Below, one piece after another: positions 24,280-45,306 of a stretch of DNA of 46,787 nt; the stretch's first letter is position 1, and every line of letters begins with the position of its first letter. The position numbers and the translations under genes were made by a program. The notes under the pieces were generated by a model. It saw only the letters and a program-made list of their open reading frames with translations, was not told the DNA's origin and ran no database searches. This stretch comes from Alphaproteobacteria bacterium SS10 (GTDB lineage: Bacteria > Pseudomonadota > Alphaproteobacteria > TMED2): NCBI GenBank assembly GCA_019192455.1, contig JAHCML010000009.1, positions 150,913-197,699 of the forward strand. Reading direction: 5' to 3'.

Positions 24280-24894
24280 ATGCCGCGCTGGGTTTCTCGA
24301 TACATGCTGGCCGCCTTATTGGTCGTGCTGGCGCCTGCATCCCAAAGCTTTGCCCAGGAGCAGGCGCAGTCGGCGGTGCCACCCAATGCCCGCTATCAGG
24401 GGATCGACCCGCAAGGGCATTTTAAGGCGATTATTCCGGCGCCACTCCGGTCCCTTGGCCATCAGAAGATTTCGAAGGATGGACGCCTCTGGGCGACATC
24501 CCACAGGCGTTTCGCAAGCTTCGGTAATGAGATTTCGCTCGTCTTTGGGGTGCTTGAGTTTACCAATCAGCTCGCCATCAATATGCAGATCCTAGACGCC
24601 GATCCCCTGGGTGTTTTGATGGAGGATGATGCCGAGGCCTTCCTGGCGGCGATGGGTAAGACCTTCAATATTACCGACATTCAAACCTTCAGGGCCTTCG
24701 GCACACGCGCTGCGCAGATCAAGGCGAGATCGTTGGTGGAGGATGATCCAAGGCCGCATCTGATTATGTATGTTGTGCCTTACCCCGATAGCATGGTCGT
24801 GACCTTCATGGGCGCCGCCACGCCTGAGCTTTTGCAGGGCTCAGAGGCGCAGGATTTTAACCGTAGTTTTGAGGCCTTCGAACAACCGCGATGA
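24280..24894 (+). CDS. Exported protein of unknown function (shared C-terminal domain with the 25785-26825 protein)
   Basis: The 204-residue protein has a signal peptide (LAALLVVLAPASQSFA, cleavage after FAQ near residue 26), so it is periplasmic or secreted. The body ends with FRAFGTRAAQIKARSL, then HLIMYVVPYPDSMVVTFMGA and EAQDFNRSFEAFE. The same pattern (FDAFGRDAVELTGA, YAVIWLMPDGDHLILVVLRA and EAAQFNQSFQLL) is in the third gene of this cluster, so the two share a domain. Its stop overlaps the next start in ATGA, which suggests translational coupling. I do not assign a function. Confidence 0.75.
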   Translation: MPRWVSRYMLAALLVVLAPASQSFAQEQAQSAVPPNARYQGIDPQGHFKAIIPAPLRSLGHQKISKDGRLWATSHRRFASFGNEISLVFGVLEFTNQLAINMQILDADPLGVLMEDDAEAFLAAMGKTFNITDIQTFRAFGTRAAQIKARSLVEDDPRPHLIMYVVPYPDSMVVTFMGAATPELLQGSEAQDFNRSFEAFEQPR

Positions 24895-25727
24895 ATTGGT
24901 TTGAGCCGGTTTTTCAGGGCATCATCCCACTGGGTGACACCCTTCTTGGTTACTGGGTCCTGCTGACCAGCATGATGCTGGCCTATACCCTTGCCAGCTG
25001 GGTTCGGCCGCGCTGGCACCAGCTGATCCGCCTCGCCATCGGTTTCGTGTTTGGTCAGGCCTGGATTGCCCTCGTGCCGCCACAACCCTTGGGGTCCATG
25101 GGTGGGCGTCTCGGCGGTTTTCAGGACGAGGTTTTTCTTGTTCTGACCCTGATTGTCATCGGCCTTGGCGGGATCGTCTATTCACTGTTTCGGCCGCGCC
25201 TAAACGTTTTGGCCCCAGCCATCGCCGCCCTGCTAATCGGTGGGTTGAGCTACACCTACCATATCATCCTGGCCAACGGCCTGGATGAGGCGGATCGGGC
25301 ACAACAGGCCGAGGAGCTGTCCGCCCTGCTAACCCTGTCTGATGAGGCCTATGGCGAGGTTTGCGCCCTGCCCCTTTATGAGTGCGGCGATGGCCCGCCC
25401 GAGACGGCGCATCAGGCCTTCAACCGTGACCTGGGCGATTGGCTAAGCTTTGCACCGCCCGATTATCGTGGATTGATTGCCTCCTCAAACGGGGCGGTCA
25501 CAACCAACCCTACCTATGTCTGGGCAGCAGAAATCGCCGATGATGGGGTTCGGTGGATCAAGAAGGACTATCAGAACCAAACCAATGCCCTGAACTTGGT
25601 GTTCGGCATGATGCTGCTTCTGGCGTCGAGCTTTTGGTTCTTTGCGGCGGTGCTGGTTGAGATGCTGCATGAACGCATGTGGCGACGCCGTGCGAAGGCA
25701 AATGCGGCGCCGGTTGCGGCGGATTAA
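24891..25727 (+). CDS. Polytopic membrane protein of unknown function
   Basis: The 278-residue protein has five hydrophobic segments: LLTSMMLAYTLASW, LIRLAIGFVFGQAWIAL, VFLVLTLIVIGLGGIVYSLF, VLAPAIAALLIGGLSYTYHI and, after a polar region of about 110 residues, NLVFGMMLLLASSFWFFAAV. An Arg-rich cytoplasmic tail follows (ERMWRRRAKAN). The large loop has several Cys and acidic residues and would be periplasmic if the first helix runs outward. It starts inside the stop of the previous gene (4-base overlap) and is followed 57 bases later by the third cluster gene. An envelope complex is plausible but inferred. Confidence 0.72.
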   Translation: MNWFEPVFQGIIPLGDTLLGYWVLLTSMMLAYTLASWVRPRWHQLIRLAIGFVFGQAWIALVPPQPLGSMGGRLGGFQDEVFLVLTLIVIGLGGIVYSLFRPRLNVLAPAIAALLIGGLSYTYHIILANGLDEADRAQQAEELSALLTLSDEAYGEVCALPLYECGDGPPETAHQAFNRDLGDWLSFAPPDYRGLIASSNGAVTTNPTYVWAAEIADDGVRWIKKDYQNQTNALNLVFGMMLLLASSFWFFAAVLVEMLHERMWRRRAKANAAPVAAD

Positions 25728-25784: not shown

Positions 25785-26825
25785 ATGAAGGGGCTTTTGG
25801 TTCTATTGAGCATGTTGGCGGTGCTGGCCGCCGCCGGTGCTATCATTGGCTATGCCGTATTCGGCAAAGACTTCTACGACATCATTACCGTGGCTGAGGC
25901 CCGGCTTAAGGCAGCCGAGCGTGAGGCCCAGGAATTGGGCTTAATCGACGGTAGTACCGAGGATGGGCAGGCCGAAAACGCGCCCCCAGCCGACGGTTCT
26001 AGTGGACCCCCATCAGAGGTCGCGAGCACTCCAGCCGGGGATGCGAATGCTGGTGGCGGATTGCCGCCACTGCCCGGTGATGCTTCTGTCCCATCCAATC
26101 AGCAACCAGCTGCCCAACAACCGACGGCCCCGCCACCGGCACAGGTCGCCGTTGTGACACCACCGGCCGCATCCACGGCCCAGCAGGCGGTCACCTTTAC
26201 CGATACAGACCAGCTGTTCTCATCAGTCTTTCCGGCCCCGGTCAGCCGGTTTGAAGACTTTGTTCAAGGTATCGATCCGGAAATGGTGGCCGAAAGCGTG
26301 ACCTATGCTGCCGCTGGTGCCGAGATCATCGCCCAGGTGTCGCGCCTGCGCTGGCAAGATGAGTTTGCGCCAGTGATCCCGCCATTTTTGGATGCGGTCC
26401 GCCGTGATCCTGTTCCGGCGTTAGCGAGCGAGCTGGGTCAACGGATGGTGGCGGTCCTCATGGGCGAGGGGACGCGCATCGACCAGGTGCGCCGCTTTGA
26501 TGCCTTTGGTCGGGATGCGGTCGAACTGACCGGCGCTATTCCCGATGGCGATCAGGGCGGCCATTACGCTGTGATCTGGCTGATGCCCGATGGCGATCAC
26601 CTGATCCTGGTCGTGCTGCGTGCCTATGACAATACCGGCCTTCTGGGTGCAGAGGCGGCGCAGTTCAACCAGAGCTTTCAGCTGCTGAGAGAGGTCGCTG
26701 CAGTAAGTCCACAGGTGGAAGAGGCTGTAGAGCCAGCGCCTAGCGAAGAGACTGGTGCAACCCCTGAAGCGGCAGCCGAACCGGCTGAGCAGGCCGAACC
26801 CAAACCGGCCAAGGCTAAGGAATAG
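25785..26825 (+). CDS. Membrane-anchored protein with Pro/Gln-rich linker and shared C-terminal domain
   Basis: The 346-residue protein starts with a membrane anchor (LLVLLSMLAVLAAAGAIIGY). A disordered linker of about 75 residues rich in Pro, Gln, Ala and Gly follows (about 60-135). A folded domain at about 140-310 ends in FDAFGRDAVELTGAI and EAAQFNQSFQLLRE blocks, which are shared with the first cluster gene. The tail is Ala/Glu/Pro-rich and may be disordered. The anchor plus long linker would let the domain reach across the periplasm. The start codon follows GAGTGAGGCCCA, a weak Shine-Dalgarno. The function is unknown. Confidence 0.7.
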   Translation: MKGLLVLLSMLAVLAAAGAIIGYAVFGKDFYDIITVAEARLKAAEREAQELGLIDGSTEDGQAENAPPADGSSGPPSEVASTPAGDANAGGGLPPLPGDASVPSNQQPAAQQPTAPPPAQVAVVTPPAASTAQQAVTFTDTDQLFSSVFPAPVSRFEDFVQGIDPEMVAESVTYAAAGAEIIAQVSRLRWQDEFAPVIPPFLDAVRRDPVPALASELGQRMVAVLMGEGTRIDQVRRFDAFGRDAVELTGAIPDGDQGGHYAVIWLMPDGDHLILVVLRAYDNTGLLGAEAAQFNQSFQLLREVAAVSPQVEEAVEPAPSEETGATPEAAAEPAEQAEPKPAKAKE

Positions 26826-33912: not shown

Positions 33913-35598
33913 ATGTCCAGCCCTTGGCCCCTAGATACAGCGGCAAAGCTTCTCTCTGGTGATCCAGCGGTCGATAGCCCGGCCTGGCATGAGCTGCTGT
34001 ATCAGCTCGTCGCCAATTGTCGTGAGGCAGCCCAGGCAAGCGATGACGTACCGCCGGTGATCATGGAATGCTTGGCGGCAGCGCTCGCGGCACCTGGCGT
34101 TACCCGGCAGACGGTCTACTCCTTAGCGCTGGCGCTCTTGGCCAATTCTGAACAGCAGGCCCATATGCTGGGGCTGGGTGCCGAGGATCCGGGCGCTGAG
34201 ACCCTTTGGTTCCTAACCGACCCCACCTGCCGCAAGCTTTTGGCGCAGCCCGCGCTGCACGAACTCCTGTTCGCTGGGGCGCTCTATGATGGTGTGTTGG
34301 AGGCTGTGCTGACCACTGTCAGGGCCAGGTTGGCCGGGGCGTTTATCGCCGGCGACCTGCCGTCATTTCAGTGGGACATGCTGCTACCGTTGATGAATGC
34401 GATCGCGGCGCAGGGGTTGCTGACCGAGTATGCCTGGGCCCTGGATGGCCGGGAGCAAGAGCAGGTTCAGCAACTCATCAATGATATTGACGTTGATGAT
34501 GATCTGCTCGCCGTGCGGCTATTACTCATCGCCAGTTACCAGCCGTTATTCAGTCTTGAGAGCTGGGAGAAGCTGCTTTCCGATGATGAGGCACGGGAAG
34601 ACCTTATCGATGATGGGTTTGATGAGCGGTTGATTGGCCTCCACTGGGATGAACCAAGAGCCTGGCAGCGCCATGCCGAAGCTATCCCGGTGATGACGGA
34701 GGTCAGCGATGCCATCTCAAAAGCGGTGGCAGAGCAGTATGAGCAGAACCCCTACCCACGATGGTCGCGGCTTGGTTTGATCCCGCCATTGGGGTTGGCT
34801 GGCTATATCTCCCACCAACTTGGCCGCCCGCTCGATGTCGGCGGTAGGGCCCAGCCCCGCATCTTAATCGCGGGGTGCGGTACCGGTCGGCAGGCCCTGG
34901 CTGTTGCCTCAATCATTCCAGAGGCCAGCATCGATGCGGTGGACCTTAGCCGTCAGAGCCTCGGCTATGCCGCGATGATGGCCGAGCGGTTGGGGCTGCA
35001 GCCGCGCTTAACCTTCGCCCAGGGTGATATTCTGGCCCTTGCAGACCATGTTGAGCCCGGCTCCTATGATGTGGCGGAGTCGATTGGCGTGCTGCATCAC
35101 ATGGCCGACCCGGCGGCTGGTCTCGCCTCCGTTGCCACCACGCTTCGACCCGACGGCCTTTTGCAGTTGGGTTTCTATAGCCGTACTGGTCGCTCGGCGA
35201 TTAATAGCCTCCGCGCCCGGTTTGGTGATGGCCGCGATCCGGACAGCGCCGCCGATCTTCGTGACCTGCGCCGACAGATATTAATGGATGGTGGGGAGGA
35301 TGTGGCCCGGGTGCGATGGACCACGGATCTCTATTCCCTCTCCGGTTTTCGCGACCTTCTATTCCACCGGCAAGAGCATCAGTTTGACCTGCCTGGGATT
35401 GCCCAGTTGCTTGCCGACCAAGGGCTTGAGTTCTTGGGCATGAGCTTTGCCGATCCCGTCCAGCGCCAACCCTACCGCACCATGTTTCCGGATGATGAGC
35501 AGATGGCCGATCTGGACCGTTGGCACCAGGTTGAGCAGGCCAATCCAACCATGTTCGCGGCCATGTACAATTTCTGGTGCCGTAAGCCAGCCGGGTAG
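33913..35598 (+). CDS. Class I SAM-dependent methyltransferase with helical N-terminal domain (copy 1)
   Basis: The 561-residue protein has a mainly helical N-terminal half (about 1-270) with no recognised domain. A QYEQNPYPRWSRL motif follows at 275-287, and then a Rossmann methyltransferase: motif I RILIAGCGTGRQALA near 316, acidic loop IDAVDLSRQSLGYAAMMAE and post-loop SIGVLHHMADPAAG. A paralogue of similar size at 40818-42488 is broken by a stop. The acceptor is unknown; the N-P-Y-P-R-W block is a family mark in tetratricopeptide-associated methyltransferases. The gene leads the accessory block and is followed 5 bases later by the 35604 gene, probably co-transcribed. Confidence 0.85.
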   Translation: MSSPWPLDTAAKLLSGDPAVDSPAWHELLYQLVANCREAAQASDDVPPVIMECLAAALAAPGVTRQTVYSLALALLANSEQQAHMLGLGAEDPGAETLWFLTDPTCRKLLAQPALHELLFAGALYDGVLEAVLTTVRARLAGAFIAGDLPSFQWDMLLPLMNAIAAQGLLTEYAWALDGREQEQVQQLINDIDVDDDLLAVRLLLIASYQPLFSLESWEKLLSDDEAREDLIDDGFDERLIGLHWDEPRAWQRHAEAIPVMTEVSDAISKAVAEQYEQNPYPRWSRLGLIPPLGLAGYISHQLGRPLDVGGRAQPRILIAGCGTGRQALAVASIIPEASIDAVDLSRQSLGYAAMMAERLGLQPRLTFAQGDILALADHVEPGSYDVAESIGVLHHMADPAAGLASVATTLRPDGLLQLGFYSRTGRSAINSLRARFGDGRDPDSAADLRDLRRQILMDGGEDVARVRWTTDLYSLSGFRDLLFHRQEHQFDLPGIAQLLADQGLEFLGMSFADPVQRQPYRTMFPDDEQMADLDRWHQVEQANPTMFAAMYNFWCRKPAG

Positions 35599-37720: not shown

Positions 37721-37918
37721 GTTTCCTCGGTCAAACGGGCCGCTTCGTTGGGGTTGCGGTCTTCCTTATCTGTGGGGAGCGACTGTGCTCAGAACTGCCG
37801 CCCAGGTCAACACCGCCCCGTATCAGTAAACCCTTATATTAATTACCAAAAAGAAACATGTTGCATTCACATGGCCACTTTCATTAATCACCAGTAAACA
37901 ATCGACAACGGATAAATT

Positions 37919-37953
37919 CTCGCGCAACCAGAAGTTCATACGCGAGCTTTTAT
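37919..37953 (+). terminator. Inverted repeat followed by CTTTTAT
   Basis: CTCGCG at 37919-37924 pairs with CGCGAG at 37941-37946 across a 16-base loop, and CTTTTAT follows. It might be a weak terminator on the plus strand or an operator. The loop is longer than usual, so confidence is low. Confidence 0.3.
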
Positions 37954-37984
37954 AAGGTCCAACACGATGGCTACGTTCTGGAAT

Positions 37985-38240
37985 TTAGGGTTGGCACAGG
38001 CCGACCATTTGCCATGCCACACAACGCCTGAAGCGGGTTCGCTTGAGGCGCCGCGAGAACCGTTGTCCACGATCCCGCGTTTTGGGACGCGCGGGTAGCC
38101 CTCAACCCTTAAGCACTGGCTTCTGGGTCGGTCCCACACAATCAAACCAAACATTTGAGCGCTGAAAGCGGCATCCGGGAACACCGGGTGCCCTTCGGCA
38201 TATCGCGCGACTGCCTGGCTTCAGCCATGGAAGGCAGGGG
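37985..38240 (+). ncRNA. Hairpin-rich leader or small RNA candidate
   Basis: Five stems can be drawn by eye. GGTTGGC/GCCGACC at 37989-38006 has loop ACAG. CGCCT-G-AAGCG/CGCTT-G-AGGCG at 38025-38050 has loop GGTT. CCCGCG/CGCGGG lies at 38074-38095. GGCATCC/GGGTGCC lies at 38170-38192, and CTGCCT/AGGCAG at 38211-38237. It lies just upstream of the first small-protein gene on the same strand, so it could be its structured 5' leader or a separate RNA. It does not match the conserved cores of RNase P, tmRNA, SRP RNA or cobalamin riboswitch that I can recall. Strand is inferred from the downstream gene. Confidence 0.4.
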
Positions 38241-38291
38241 CTGCGAGCACGACACAAACCGACAACCAATTGTTCTTTTAAGGGTAAATCG

Positions 38292-38792
38292 ATGACTGGA
38301 CGCGTTTGGACAAAAGCATTGGCACTGGCCGCAGCTAGTGCCGTTGGAAACCCCGCAGCTGCCCAAAACGAGGCTGCAACTGAAACCTATGACATTCGGG
38401 CTGAATGGTTGGACCCGGCGGTGGTCGACCACCCCAAAGCCCATGACCGGATCATGACCGAGCTGGCCAATCACTACCCGGTTAGCCGCCGCACTTTGGA
38501 TGAGCTGGGCCTGAACAGCGCTGCGGCCAGTGCCTTCGCCGAGGCCCGCAATCGTGGTGACCTGTTCTTGAAGCTCAACGAGACGGATCGAGAGTGGTGG
38601 AAAGACACCCAGCCGCAGCTTGAGCAGATCATGGATGACTATCGCACCCGAGAGCGGAACCGCTCACTTGCGGTTTTGGGCACCATCGGTGTTGCCGGCG
38701 CGGGCGGTTTGGCAGCCTGGAAGATCCGCCGTCGCCGCAAGGACAAAACGGCAGAAACGGCCGCCCCATCCGGGCCTAAGCGCAGCCCATAA
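38292..38792 (+). CDS. Small periplasmic single-pass protein, paralogous family member 1
   Basis: The 166-residue protein has a signal peptide (cleavage near AAAQ, residue 25). The periplasmic domain has EWLDPAVVDH and AFAEARNRGDLF, then EWWKDTQPQLEQIM with Trp102-Trp103. One membrane helix (SLAVLGTIGVAGAGGLAAW, about 125-143) and the Arg/Lys cluster IRRRRKDK follow, so the C-terminus is cytoplasmic. AAGGGT at 38280-38285 precedes the ATG. Four further copies follow at 38839, 39553, 40122 and 42994 (minus). Copy 1 has the most divergent middle: the G-E-L-P motif of the others is GDLF here. The function is unknown. Confidence 0.8.
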   Translation: MTGRVWTKALALAAASAVGNPAAAQNEAATETYDIRAEWLDPAVVDHPKAHDRIMTELANHYPVSRRTLDELGLNSAAASAFAEARNRGDLFLKLNETDREWWKDTQPQLEQIMDDYRTRERNRSLAVLGTIGVAGAGGLAAWKIRRRRKDKTAETAAPSGPKRSP

Positions 38793-38838
38793 CGCCGAGC
38801 CCTCAAGCCAACAGCATTTTCATTTGAAGGAGTTTTCC

Positions 38839-39423
38839 ATGTCTAAGTTTCGTAAAGGGCCTATCGCCCTCGCAGCCATTGCCGGTCTAACCTTTGGTGG
38901 TTCGGCACTCGCCAGCGGGCCGGATGCCCAGCAGCCCACCCAAACGGCTGCGGTCACTCAAACCGTTGAAGCGCCAGCACAGGCCCACGCGCAGACCGCG
39001 GTGCGGGTACATCCCGACCTGCTGGATGACTGGGCCGTCGACCGCCCCGACATTCAAGAAGAGCTGGTTGCCTCCCTCATGCCGCGCCACGCGATCATGG
39101 GTCAGTATCTGGACCGTGGTTTCACCACCGAGGCTGCTGGCGCCCTGACCCGGGCTAATAACCATGGTGAACTGCCGCGCGCGCTAGAGGGTGAGGCTGC
39201 TGGCGATTGGTGGCAACGCGCCGAGCCCGTGCTGTTTGAGAAGATGGCCGAGTACAAGGCCCAGCGGGACTTGCCCCTGCAGGTTGCCGGTGGTCTGGCT
39301 GGTCTAATGGCGCTGACAATGGTGGGCGGTGCGGCCGCCGGTGCCATCCGTCGTCGCAAGGATGGCCCACAAGCCACGGGTGAGGAGCGGCTACGCCAGC
39401 GTTTCGGCGGCATGACGCCGTAA
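38839..39423 (+). CDS. Small periplasmic single-pass protein, paralogous family member 2
   Basis: The start at 38839 follows AAGGAG at 38827-38832 with good spacing. The 194-residue protein has a signal peptide ending near ALAS (residue 26). A Gln/Ala/Thr-rich spacer leads to VHPDLLDDWAV (58-68). The conserved core is ALTRANNHGELPRALEG and GDWWQRAEPVLFEKMAEYKA, with Trp124-Trp125. A helix (VAGGLAGLMALTMVGGAAAG) precedes IRRRKDG and a 20-residue cytoplasmic tail ending FGGMTP. An in-frame start at 38620 would lie inside member 1 and is not used. Only 46 bases separate it from member 1. Confidence 0.82.
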   Translation: MSKFRKGPIALAAIAGLTFGGSALASGPDAQQPTQTAAVTQTVEAPAQAHAQTAVRVHPDLLDDWAVDRPDIQEELVASLMPRHAIMGQYLDRGFTTEAAGALTRANNHGELPRALEGEAAGDWWQRAEPVLFEKMAEYKAQRDLPLQVAGGLAGLMALTMVGGAAAGAIRRRKDGPQATGEERLRQRFGGMTP

Positions 39424-39440
39424 AACAATGGCCTCAGGCA

Positions 39441-39477
39441 TCATTTTATTGGTTCATATTATTTTACAATAAAATGA
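39441..39477. repeat. 11-bp perfect inverted repeat in AT-rich intergenic DNA
   Basis: TCATTTTATTG at 39441-39451 and CAATAAAATGA at 39467-39477 are exact reverse complements, separated by 15 AT-rich bases. It lies 17 bases after the stop of member 2 and about 75 bases before member 3. The arms contain little G or C, so an operator or protein-binding site is likelier than a terminator. A TATGAT-like -10 element lies at about 39499. Confidence 0.6.
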
Positions 39478-39552
39478 CAATCAGGCTCTTTCGTTCACAT
39501 ATGATATACAATAGCCCATACACAAAGAGAGATAATTCAAAGGGTTTCAACA

Positions 39553-40125
39553 ATGTCTACCGGTTGGAAGCAAACACTTTTAGTCGCCGCAACCGCGGCC
39601 CTCACCATGGCTGGACCAGCAGAGGCACAGGCCCAGCCACAGGCAAGCATTTGGCCGTTTCAGGCGAGCCAGGAGGTGCAGGCCATCCCAACCGATAACT
39701 ACCCTGAAATCTCACCAGAGCTTCTTGATGAGGGGATGATTGGCAATCGTAAGATGCAGAAGGCGGCGATTGATGACGCGGCCCGCGGCTATGCGATTGG
39801 CAACACGAAGTTTGATTTGGTCCTGACCACGGATGCGGCCTACACCCTGACCCGCGCCCGTAACTCGGGCGAGCTGCCCGGTGCAAAGGATGGGCAATCC
39901 CCGGCCGATTGGTGGCGCGAGACCGAGCCGAAGATCTTTGAGAAGATGGCCGAATACCGGGCTGAACGTGCCCTGCCATTCCAACTGGCTGGTGCCCTGG
40001 CCGGTGGCTTTGCCCTAATGGTTGGCGGCAGTGCGGCCCTTAGCGCCTATCGCCGTCGTAAGAATGGCCAAGGGCCAGCCAACGACCAGCGCATCGACGC
40101 AACCATGGGTGGCCCAACCCCATGA
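39553..40125 (+). CDS. Small periplasmic single-pass protein, paralogous family member 3
   Basis: The 190-residue protein has a signal peptide (MSTGWKQTLLVAATAALTMA, then cleavage near AEAQ). The spacer is Gln/Ala-rich. The core has ISPELLDEGMIG, DAARGYAIGNTKFDLVLTT, TLTRARNSGELPGAKDGQSP and ADWWRETEPKIFEKMAEYRA, with Trp120-Trp121. A membrane helix (LAGALAGGFALMVGGSAAL) and YRRRKNG follow, with a tail ending GGPTP. It is the closest copy to member 2, especially through the EKMAEY block. AAAGGG lies 10 bases before the ATG. The last four bases overlap the start of member 4 as ATGA. Confidence 0.82.
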   Translation: MSTGWKQTLLVAATAALTMAGPAEAQAQPQASIWPFQASQEVQAIPTDNYPEISPELLDEGMIGNRKMQKAAIDDAARGYAIGNTKFDLVLTTDAAYTLTRARNSGELPGAKDGQSPADWWRETEPKIFEKMAEYRAERALPFQLAGALAGGFALMVGGSAALSAYRRRKNGQGPANDQRIDATMGGPTP

Positions 40126-40712
40126 GGTCACGTTCAGCTAGCACCCCCTCAACCAACCCCTCAACGCGGTGGAAGAACCGGCTTCTGACGGCCGCCGTGA
40201 CCGCCATGACCATGGGTCCACCATTGGCTGCCAATGCACAGGACATCTCTTACGAGCAGCCACCAGCCCAGATATCCCAAGGCGCGCTGATCGACCATGA
40301 TCTGCTCGATGATGCGGTTATCGGTGACATCAAGGCCCAGCGCCAGATCATTGGAGCCGCGGCCAAGGGCCATGCCATTGCTGATCCCAGCTTTGATGGT
40401 ATGGGGCTGAGCCGCCGTGCTGCCCATGCCCTAACGGCCCTGCGCAATAATGGTGACCTACCAGGGGCCGCAGAGGGCCAGGACCCAGCAGAGTGGTGGC
40501 AACAGGCCGAGGGTAAGATCAAAGAGCATGTGGCGGACCAACGCCTCGCCGATGCCATTGGCGGCGGTATCCTAATCGCCGGTCTGGTCGGCATGGGGCG
40601 CGCCCTGATGGTTGGCAATATCGATGGCAACCAACCCGCCCGTCGTCGCCGCAGTGAGGATGAAGGACCCAGCCCGTCCCAATCGGGTCCGCGGACTGGC
40701 CCTAGGCCCTAA
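40122..40712 (+). CDS. Small periplasmic single-pass protein, paralogous family member 4
   Basis: The start codon overlaps the stop of member 3 in ATGA, so translation is probably coupled. The 196-residue protein has a longer n-region (about 20 residues with Arg/Lys) and a signal peptide ending near ANAQ (residue 40). The core is IDHDLLDDAVIGDIKAQRQI, ALTALRNNGDLPGAAEGQDP and AEWWQQAEGKIKEHV, with Trp125-Trp126. The helix (GGGILIAGLVGMGRALMVG) and ARRRRSED follow. The tail is Pro/Ser/Gly-rich. It lacks the EKMAEY stretch of members 2 and 3. The function is unknown. Confidence 0.8.
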   Translation: MRSRSASTPSTNPSTRWKNRLLTAAVTAMTMGPPLAANAQDISYEQPPAQISQGALIDHDLLDDAVIGDIKAQRQIIGAAAKGHAIADPSFDGMGLSRRAAHALTALRNNGDLPGAAEGQDPAEWWQQAEGKIKEHVADQRLADAIGGGILIAGLVGMGRALMVGNIDGNQPARRRRSEDEGPSPSQSGPRTGPRP

Positions 40713-40817
40713 TCCCTGAACCCAAAGGTAACCGGGTAAAGCGACTGGCCTTGATCGGCGCGGTGACGGTATACCGGTCTGGTTGGCTATCCCTCGACCA
40801 ATCGGCCCCCTAGCCCC

Positions 40818-42488
40818 ATGTCCCTGTTTGACCTGGCTGACCAACTCCACGGTCCCAGCGCGCTCAACCCCGCCACGCCTGAATGGGCCGATGCGGTGGA
40901 TCGGTTCCTGGCCGCGCTGGTCCAGCAGCCGCTGACGGATGAGGCCAGCTTTGGCCGGGTTGAGCAGGTGCTGGTGTTTTGCCTCGCCCAGCAAAACGCC
41001 GATCTTGATCAGGTTGGCAATTTTGCGCTCTCGCTGCTGTTCAACACCGGGATCGTTGGCCTGATTGATCAGGCGATGGCCACCGATCCAACGGGGCGCA
41101 GCCTTTGGTTTCTGGCTAACCCCACGCTAAGGCGCCTGGTGTCCTCACCACTATTGACCAGTCTGCTGACGCTGCGCCCAATTACCAATAGCCATGGTGA
41201 GCGGCTGCTGACTGCCCTCCGACAGGGCCTGCTGTTGGATTGGACCGGTGCGCGCGTCTTGGGGGATGAGCATTGGGGCCTGCTGCTGCCGATCTTGAAT
41301 GCGATGGCGGTCCATGGGGCGATGACCGAATATGCCTGGATGATTGAGGATGGCGCCATGGACGCCCTGGTGCCCGCCATCAAGTCACTGGCATCACCGC
41401 CCAGTGCTGAAATGCTGCCCACGCTGATGCTGGCTGCTTGCTATGGGCCGCTGACGGACTGGCCAGAAACCAAGGCAATGGCGCTTAACCATGAGGCGGC
41501 GTTGTTGGCCCTTGGTGTCTCCCCCACCTTGTTCGACTGACACATCAAACGCCCAACCGACCAGCGGCAAAAGGCCGAGGGGATCGCGCAACGGGGCGAG
41601 CTTCAGGGGCAGGTATCCGTCGATGTGGGCCAACATTATGAAGAGAACCCCTATCCGCGCTGGTCGCGCCTGCCATCGCTGCCTGCAATCAATACCGAGC
41701 TCTATCTGACCCATGATTTGGGCTATGAGCCCGAGGGGGCATCAGCGCCGATTGATCAGATTCTGATCGCCGGCTGTGGCACTGGCCAGCAGCCCCTGCA
41801 ACTGTTGATGCTGCTGCGTGATAAGGCCATTGATGCCATGGATTTAAGTCGTGCGAGCCTGGGTTATGCCGCCATGATGGCTGAACGGTATGGGGTGGGT
41901 GATCGCCTCAACCTGTTCCAGGGCGATATCCTTGAGTTGCCCAATCTGGACGCGCTCTATGACCTCATCCAATCCTCAGGTGTGATCCACCATATGGAGG
42001 ATCCGGCGGCGGGGCTTGCCGCCCTGACCGCATGTTTGAGGCCAGGTGGTTGGCTGCGGCTGGGCCTCTATAGCGAAACCGCCCGTCGGCATATTCGTAC
42101 ACTTCGTGACGCCTATGGGCAGGATCAGGATTTGGCCGATCCCGTAACTCTACGTCAGTTGCGGCAGCGCCTATTGGCCGATCAGAGTGAGGCGGCAAAG
42201 CAGGTCAGCCTGATCGCGGATTTCTACACCCTCTCAGGTTTTCGGGATCTGCTGTTTCACCGGCAAGAGCATCGCTACACAATCCCCATGATCGCCGACA
42301 TGCTGCCGGCGGAAGGGTTGGAGTTTATGGGCTTCTCCCTACCCAATCAGGCAGTGCGGGACCAGTACCGGGCAAGCTTCCCCGATGACCCAAATATGCT
42401 GTCGCTTGAGAACTGGCACAGGTTTGAGCAGGCCAACCCCGACACCTTCCTCGCGATGTACAATTTCTGGTGCCGTAGGCCGGGTTAA
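40818..42488 (+). pseudogene. NPYPRW-type SAM methyltransferase, copy 2, broken by in-frame TGA
   Basis: The helical N-terminal part (40818-41540, 240 residues) ends at TGA 41538-41540. The same frame continues without shift through HIKRPTDQRQKAEGIA into QHYEENPYPRWSRL at 41631, then a methyltransferase domain with QILIAGCGTGQQPLQL and SSGVIHHMEDPAAG. Read through, it is 556 residues against 561 for the copy at 33913. The stop falls near Trp245 of that copy (LHWDEP), so TGG to TGA is the simplest account. A separate start at GTG 41625 could express the catalytic half. It is probably decayed or recently damaged. Confidence 0.75.
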
Positions 42489-42994
42489 TAGCGGCGTCCG
42501 GGGCCAGCGCTGGCGAGGGCCGGGCCACTGGTAACGAGCCCAATGATAAGCCCGATGGCCGCTGCACCGATCAACCCACTGCGGATGGAGGTCTTGCGCG
42601 CCTCAATCAGGCCTGGCTCCACATCTTTCCACCATTCAGCCGCTGTCTGGCCGCCAGGCTGGGCATCAGCCGCCCCTAGCACATGCCCCTCATTCCGGTT
42701 CTCCGAAATGATCTTGGCCGCGGTTTCATCCATACCCATGGCCTCCAACCGTTGATTGGAAACCGGTAGCGGGCCGGCGGCGTAATCGATGATTTCACGC
42801 TGGGCTGCGGGATCGTTCTCAGCCTCAGTTTTCAGCAGGTCGGGGTGGATCGTTGGGTACGCCACCGGTGCCTCGGCCGTTATCTCATGGGTTGGCGTTT
42901 GCGTGTCAGGGCCGCTGGCAAAAACGGAAGCCGGGGCAACGACCATGCCAGCCGCAGCAAGAAGGGTGAGGGGAAGTCCAGCCTTGGGGGCCAT
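42485..42994 (-). CDS. Small periplasmic single-pass protein, paralogous family member 5 (opposite strand)
   Basis: The 169-residue protein has a signal peptide ending near VFAS (residue 27), IHPDLLKTEAE, AAKIISENRNEGHVLGAADA and AEWWKDVEPGLIEARK with Trp121-Trp122. A membrane helix (LIGAAAIGLIIGLVTSGPAL) follows, but the tail is short and less Arg-rich (GPGRRY). It is the only copy on the minus strand. AGGAG precedes the ATG at a spacing of 7 bases. Its stop codon and that of the methyltransferase copy share TTAA, so the two genes end tail to tail. The N-terminal SGPDTQTPT is close to that of member 2 (SGPDAQQPT). Confidence 0.8.
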   Translation of the reverse strand: MAPKAGLPLTLLAAAGMVVAPASVFASGPDTQTPTHEITAEAPVAYPTIHPDLLKTEAENDPAAQREIIDYAAGPLPVSNQRLEAMGMDETAAKIISENRNEGHVLGAADAQPGGQTAAEWWKDVEPGLIEARKTSIRSGLIGAAAIGLIIGLVTSGPALASAGPGRRY

Positions 42995-43236
42995 ATTAAG
43001 TCTCCTGGGGAGGGGAGCCTGACGATAAAAGGTACCGGCGAAGCGATGTATCAGTGATGTCTAGCCCTTGGCCTACGCCCCTCTGTCGAAAGCACCAATC
43101 CCCCGCTGCGGGTCGGCAAGCCCGTGACACCAGTAACCTTGGCGGCCTAGCCCCGCACGCGGTATATAGGCGGCAACAGATCGGCCAGCTTGCATCATCG
43201 CTGGCCCCATAAAGAATAACCTTGAGGAAACCACCC

Positions 43237-44415: not shown

Positions 44416-45306
44416 ATGCAGTTTGAATCTATACAACATTTTCAAAGTGTTTTTGCTTACAATCACTTTGTCTCGCAAGCAGATACCAATTATATCTTGG
44501 CAAAGATATCTGCGCTTGCGGGTTATCATGGGGAGTTTTACTGGAATGCAGCACAGTCCTTAGAAAAATATATGAAGGCGTGCCTGGTTTTAAATGGCCA
44601 TAAAGTAGATCGATTTGGCCATAAAATATTTGATGGATATAAAATTATTGAAGAAAATTTTGAAGAATTTATAAAATTTAAATCAGATTATATTGAAGAG
44701 CTATCAGAGATTATCTCTGTAAGAGATTATAAGTACTATATATCAAAAATTGATAATATGGGGCATCCGGATGTTAGATATGGAATGATCTCATATAACT
44801 TTGGCACAGATGACTTTGTGATTTTTTGCTACCTTAGCCAGTTAATTCGAAGCCTATCGATAGGCTTGGATTGGAAAATTGGACAGTATTTTCCAGAGTC
44901 AGATCCTGGCGCAGATGGATACGAAACATATGGAGACCTTTTGAGAAATAATCCTCTATATCAAATTAGAGAGTTTTATTTTCCGCAAAAATCATATTTT
45001 CCTAAATTTGACAATATTAATCAGATTAGGGATTATATGGATGTAACATATACTGATGTAAATGATATTTTGTCCACTAAGGTTCCAAATACTGTAAATT
45101 GTGAAATACCTTTTTTTAGAAATTCGTTTTTGAATTTACTATTTCATCATATCGGTAAGAGTCCGGATGATTATCTCGCCCGAGAGGGTGCTGAATGGAT
45201 GTTAAATAATATCTATTTGGATAGAGAATCAAAGAAGGTGTTTCGCTTACTTTTGGACGATCCTCAGTATTATTCAGTCGAGATCCTGTCTTCTGCGGGA
45301 GAATGA
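44416..45306 (+). CDS. HEPN-type domain protein on AT-rich DNA
   Basis: The 296-residue protein has an N-terminal HEPN-like region: YHGEFYWNAAQSLEKYMKAC, then LVLNGHKVDRFGHKI, which matches the helix pair and GHK/HDL pattern of HEPN domains. The rest is Tyr/Asp/Phe-rich and not recognised. It has no signal peptide. The DNA is far more AT-rich than the window (one stretch at 44641-44700 is about 15% GC), so it was probably acquired recently. It starts 6 bases after liuA without a Shine-Dalgarno. HEPN proteins often act in RNA cleavage or toxin-antitoxin systems, but no catalytic motif or partner gene is confirmed here. Confidence 0.7.
   Translation: MQFESIQHFQSVFAYNHFVSQADTNYILAKISALAGYHGEFYWNAAQSLEKYMKACLVLNGHKVDRFGHKIFDGYKIIEENFEEFIKFKSDYIEELSEIISVRDYKYYISKIDNMGHPDVRYGMISYNFGTDDFVIFCYLSQLIRSLSIGLDWKIGQYFPESDPGADGYETYGDLLRNNPLYQIREFYFPQKSYFPKFDNINQIRDYMDVTYTDVNDILSTKVPNTVNCEIPFFRNSFLNLLFHHIGKSPDDYLAREGAEWMLNNIYLDRESKKVFRLLLDDPQYYSVEILSSAGE

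Follow-up and report, generated by a model that had tools for sequence, protein, structure and literature searches.

The window analysed here, a stretch of 46,787 nucleotides from Alphaproteobacteria bacterium SS10, contains five related open reading frames (ORFs) of 166, 194, 190, 196 and 169 amino acids, which we refer to as copies A to E. The original prediction had described five genes of 166-196 residues, four in tandem on the plus strand and one inverted, and all five ORFs lie where it had placed them. The features of the locus are as follows.

38292-38792, plus strand: copy A, 166 aa; apparent signal peptide, short spacer, degenerate core (RNRGDLF, EWW), predicted transmembrane (TM) helix, KIRRRRK tail
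38839-39423, plus strand: copy B, 194 aa; strong Shine-Dalgarno-like GAAGGAG before the ATG at 38839
39424-39552, plus strand: AT-rich gap between B and C, 33% GC
39553-40125, plus strand: copy C, 190 aa; nearest core relatives are both neighbours, B (42%) and D (44%)
40122-40712, plus strand: copy D, 196 aa; overlaps C by ATGA; predicted TM helix followed about 10 residues later by an Arg cluster
40818-42488, plus strand: interrupted methyltransferase reading frame
42485-42994, minus strand: copy E, 169 aa; inverted; short GPGRRY tail without an Arg/Lys cluster
Predicted core helical domain, plus strand: A 38385-38669, B 38998-39282, C 39697-39984, D 40278-40562; minus strand: E 42572-42862

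The run from A to D holds no genes other than family members. A longer ORF opening with TTG at 38620 overlaps copy A and is not the copy B gene. Shine-Dalgarno-like sequences are visible before B, C and E, and the ATGA that had been noticed to couple two of the copies is the C/D overlap at 40122-40125. Judged by its composition, the gap between B and C possibly starts a second transcription unit (C-D); upstream of A, C and E, no common promoter motif stood out beyond shuffled sequences. The 571 bp upstream of copy A (37721-38291) contain no convincing ORF and gave no Rfam match over the gathering score, and the search for Rfam matches and tRNAs returned none. A 30-bp stretch in which the copy D region resembles the methyltransferase fragment was taken as chance.

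Copy E and the methyltransferase converge, their 3' ends overlapping by 4 bp. Apart from one in-frame TGA, at 41538-41540, the methyltransferase forms a continuous, intact reading frame. Its C-terminal part is 48% identical to that of an intact paralogue at 33913-35598, which, unlike the interrupted copy, is not adjacent to the family. A third relative lies elsewhere in the same genome (G000:C9:53824-54741). The array is flanked by apparent leucine-degradation genes for a carboxyltransferase (26910), an enoyl-CoA hydratase (30330) and a biotin carboxylase (31151), and by a gene at 43222 which, from its sequence, we take to encode an acyl-CoA dehydrogenase.

A proposed check was whether genomes with one copy carry several beside an NPYPRW-type methyltransferase. 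This enzyme occurs in 37 of 190 genomes of the class, the host's included, and the 36 carriers among the 189 others are without the five-copy family, convincing members of which were confined to the host in class samples of 385 genomes. Given these carriers and the intact paralogue that stands apart from the family, the association looks like simple neighbourhood rather than a conserved one. The claim that this is the window's best candidate for an undescribed system is not supported, since the four-gene run consists of family members only and the methyltransferase occurs without them; within our searches, the data support a genuine lineage-restricted family rather than a recognisable new system.

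Homology, anatomy and predicted core

Pairwise comparison of the cores, with signal peptide and membrane helix removed, gave z = 13-38 over shuffled sequences, at identities of 26-44%. When a profile built from four copies was searched against all six-frame translations of the window, it recovered the omitted copy in each case (E = 2.7e-16 for A, 3.2e-22 for B, 8.6e-29 for C, 2.2e-24 for D and 9e-17 for E); no sixth, degenerate copy appeared in the window, where the best unrelated segment scored E 0.23. By these sequence measures, the five ORFs encode true homologues. Across the copies, codon position 2 is best conserved and position 3 least, dN is 0.58-0.96, and dS (1.1-3.0) is above 1 in all pairs and near saturation. 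This pattern indicates that the copies are old and under constraint, in agreement with the earlier view that they do not stem from recent amplification.

All five proteins begin with a hydrophobic stretch that ends in an A-x-A-like site; a spacer, a core of about 95 residues and one hydrophobic C-terminal segment follow. Signal peptide, cleavage and topology were read from hydropathy and charge, and this reading bears out the proposed common layout of a periplasmic, single-pass protein in 5/5 copies, with export and topology themselves being what we infer from it. The ectodomains are acidic (net charge -5 to -11) and the tails basic (+2 to +7), which is what the positive-inside rule asks. An Arg/Lys cluster, claimed for four of the five, is present in the 23-32-residue tails of A-D, and the tail of E has RR only. 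There are no cysteines in the five proteins. Every membrane helix contains small-xxx-small patterns, which constitute weak evidence for helix association because such helices are rich in Ala and Gly anyway.

The motifs described for the core hold to differing degrees. The WW pair is invariant, as claimed, and so is N-x-G; the full set of invariant residues comprises one Leu, an Ala-Ala pair, Asn, Gly and the WW pair. B and E show a clear HPDLLD-like motif, C and D weaker versions of it (SPELLD and DHDLLD, respectively), and A a degenerate one (RAEWLD). Similarly, the A-L-T-x-A/L-R/N-N-x-G-E/D-L-P stretch stands in B, C and D, while A and E retain only R-N-x-G. Conserved columns are mostly hydrophobic positions together with D40, R56-N57-x-G59 and W73-W74, and most exposed-type positions vary.

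Structure prediction, which had been proposed as a check on the shared motifs, returned a common helical core. The isolated D core was modelled confidently throughout (pLDDT 89, pTM 0.80), with helices at 18-28, 36-40, 46-57 and 70-94, and the full-length AF2 model of C, confident over the core only (pLDDT about 67-90; membrane and tail part below 50), shows an identical helix order. The models thus support a predicted core fold common to the copies. Neither the full-length C model nor the D core found a Foldseek match under E 0.3 or a convincing PDB match in VIA (best Z 2.6), an absence that is no proof of a new fold. Rap2a of Serratia, a type VI secretion system (T6SS) immunity protein, comes second among the Foldseek rows for the core (TM 0.25) and is missing from the VIA rows; at E 3.9, this does not count as evidence.

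Distribution of the family

Consistent with the earlier impression that this pattern fits no named family, searches of Pfam and NCBIfam (curated cut-offs), PHROGs and PADLOC (significant E-values) and PDB sequences returned nothing above cut-off, and the sub-threshold matches fell mostly on hydrophobic segments. Two weak matches were set aside: a CRP/FNR regulator, matched weakly (E 0.24-0.43) over half of the core, and the LPXTG family Gram_pos_anchor (PF00746), matched by copy A only, at 13.4 bits against a cut-off of 20, and with no LPXTG. Searching the literature for a family of this sort produced nothing relevant.

The host genome (3.19 Mb, 16 contigs) contains exactly five copies, all at this locus, and served as positive control, yielding all five in the same runs. 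Profile searches of 40 relatives, 385 genomes of the class (scanned with full-length and core profiles), 398 genomes of the phylum (all Pseudomonadota) and five genomes from the order of the nearest 16S relative, samples that overlap, gave no convincing member elsewhere. Matches in G044, G135, G175, G337 and G362 (E 0.002-0.01) cover 30-73 profile positions inside ORFs of 420-2782 codons and were rejected, being what chance would produce over 385 genomes. Pattern scans, which reach only fairly close relatives, found no family members among 84,980 GTDB species (using the C protein and a B/C/D alignment) or in IMG/VR viral contigs, and neither did tblastn searches of plasmids and phages.

The host is an isolated, deep-branching alphaproteobacterial lineage: the nearest full-length 16S among the genomes compared is 89% identical, and every relative compared shares only its class, so that relatives from the same lineage may be missing from the samples. 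Taken together, the isolated host and the lack of relatives support an undescribed, taxonomically restricted orphan family, within the databases and genomes searched. Such families abound in poorly sampled lineages, and in uncultivated taxa TM segments occur in 32.9% and signal peptides in 23.7% of the novel families (PMC10849945). The present family resembles those of the FESNov catalogue in being conserved, coding, unannotated and limited to one lineage, and many of the latter are also exported or membrane proteins (PMC10849945); it differs in that five paralogues stand together in one genome.

Candidate roles

We tentatively favour, with somewhat less than even confidence, an explanation in which the copies are lineage-restricted type I inner-membrane proteins that display paralogue-specific binding or adaptor modules in the periplasm. 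The proteins would be exported by Sec and then lose the signal peptide, leaving the helical domain of about 95 residues displayed in the periplasm on a spacer. One C-terminal helix rich in small residues would serve as the anchor, and in four of five copies a basic cluster would stop transfer after it and leave a short tail in the cytoplasm; copy E, having no such cluster, speaks against this anchoring model. The copies would derive from old tandem duplication, as suggested by the middle copy C being closest to both of its neighbours, and would have kept the residues that determine the fold while the remaining surface diverged. They would then act, most likely, as periplasmic binding or adaptor modules, each specific to its paralogue, and the Gly/Ala-rich membrane helices could let them associate side by side. 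Since the analysis turned up neither a partner gene nor an enzyme motif nor a regulatory link for the family, the adaptor or binding role is a guess from architecture.

The same gene context, which points to no specific partner, would also fit redundant lineage-specific orphans that share one minor envelope job, for example as stress-induced membrane proteins, with no paralogue-specific binding. Such families are abundant and often consist of TM or signal-peptide proteins (PMC10849945), but the persistence of five constrained copies despite near-saturated synonymous sites suggests distinct roles, and we consider this explanation unlikely, if a serious competitor.

Rather improbable, in our estimate, is an orphan immunity array in which each copy neutralises a different competitor toxin delivered to the periplasm or inner membrane. 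A tandem array of small proteins that vary in surface but keep their scaffold does recall known orphan immunity arrays, and the family shares with the rAID type an array of diverged small paralogues and an acidic domain (PMC12247911). It differs from rAID-type arrays in lacking a recombinase, toxin relatives and a known immunity family, and mobility finds no support. PADLOC, Pfam and PHROG searches left the copies without a match, and their surroundings showed no recognisable toxin, recombinase or mobile marker. The host genome lacks the T6SS sheath family PF05943 (the E. coli control was positive), a point limited by the fact that defence against the systems of others would not need a T6SS of one's own. 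Moreover, the copies are old and found in one lineage only, whereas immunity genes usually spread horizontally.

We give little credence to the most far-reaching reading, that the core is a new domain fold used in a set of inner-membrane receptors, each paralogue recognising its own periplasmic ligand or toxin, which form hetero-oligomers and represent an envelope novelty that defines an as yet unstudied order of Alphaproteobacteria.

Less probable still are exosortase-type substrates, in which the C-terminal helix and basic cluster would be a sorting signal that is cut, the protein being released or re-anchored: four of five copies share with VPLPA/PEP-CTERM substrates a signal peptide, helix and basic cluster, giving tripartite-looking C termini, and the genome encodes an exosortase (PF09721, 88 bits against a cut-off of 25.7, E 8e-25), but VPLPA or any conserved pre-helix motif is found in 0/5 copies, A-D continue for some 15-20 residues beyond the basic cluster, E has no cluster, and the conserved folded core is unrelated to any such substrate found. 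At the pre-helix position, B and C only have LPLQ/LPFQ, and A, D and E have no proline. CTERM models of Pfam and NCBIfam did not match the five, a weak test given that the VPLPA protein next to the exosortase is also unmatched in NCBIfam. The exosortase itself (G000:C3:962306-963055) is nearest to the XrtD and XrtA models, and the adjoining 309-aa protein ends in VPLPAPVLALLLPLLLLVRR, with a VPLPA motif, helix and RR.

Returning to the periplasmic modules that we favour, the five paralogues are diverged enough to define the domain and fold it confidently with no outside sequence, making this a clean, well-delimited lineage-restricted family. Should the core prove to be a novel fold that acts in binding, the unknown share of alphaproteobacterial proteomes would gain a periplasmic module; otherwise, this is an ordinary orphan family of a poorly sampled lineage.

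Two further observations concern other parts of the window. The plus-strand genes at 24280-24894 and 25785-26825, separated by one for a multi-TM protein (24891-25727), form a homologous pair (26% identity, E 1e-8) of apparently exported or anchored proteins without a Pfam family. Downstream of the array, at 44416-45306 on the plus strand, lies a HEPN-like gene (sub-threshold in Pfam) whose GC content of 33.6% in a window of 59% makes it probably a recent acquisition; a 32% identical relative is found on a plasmid of Azospirillum ramasamyi.
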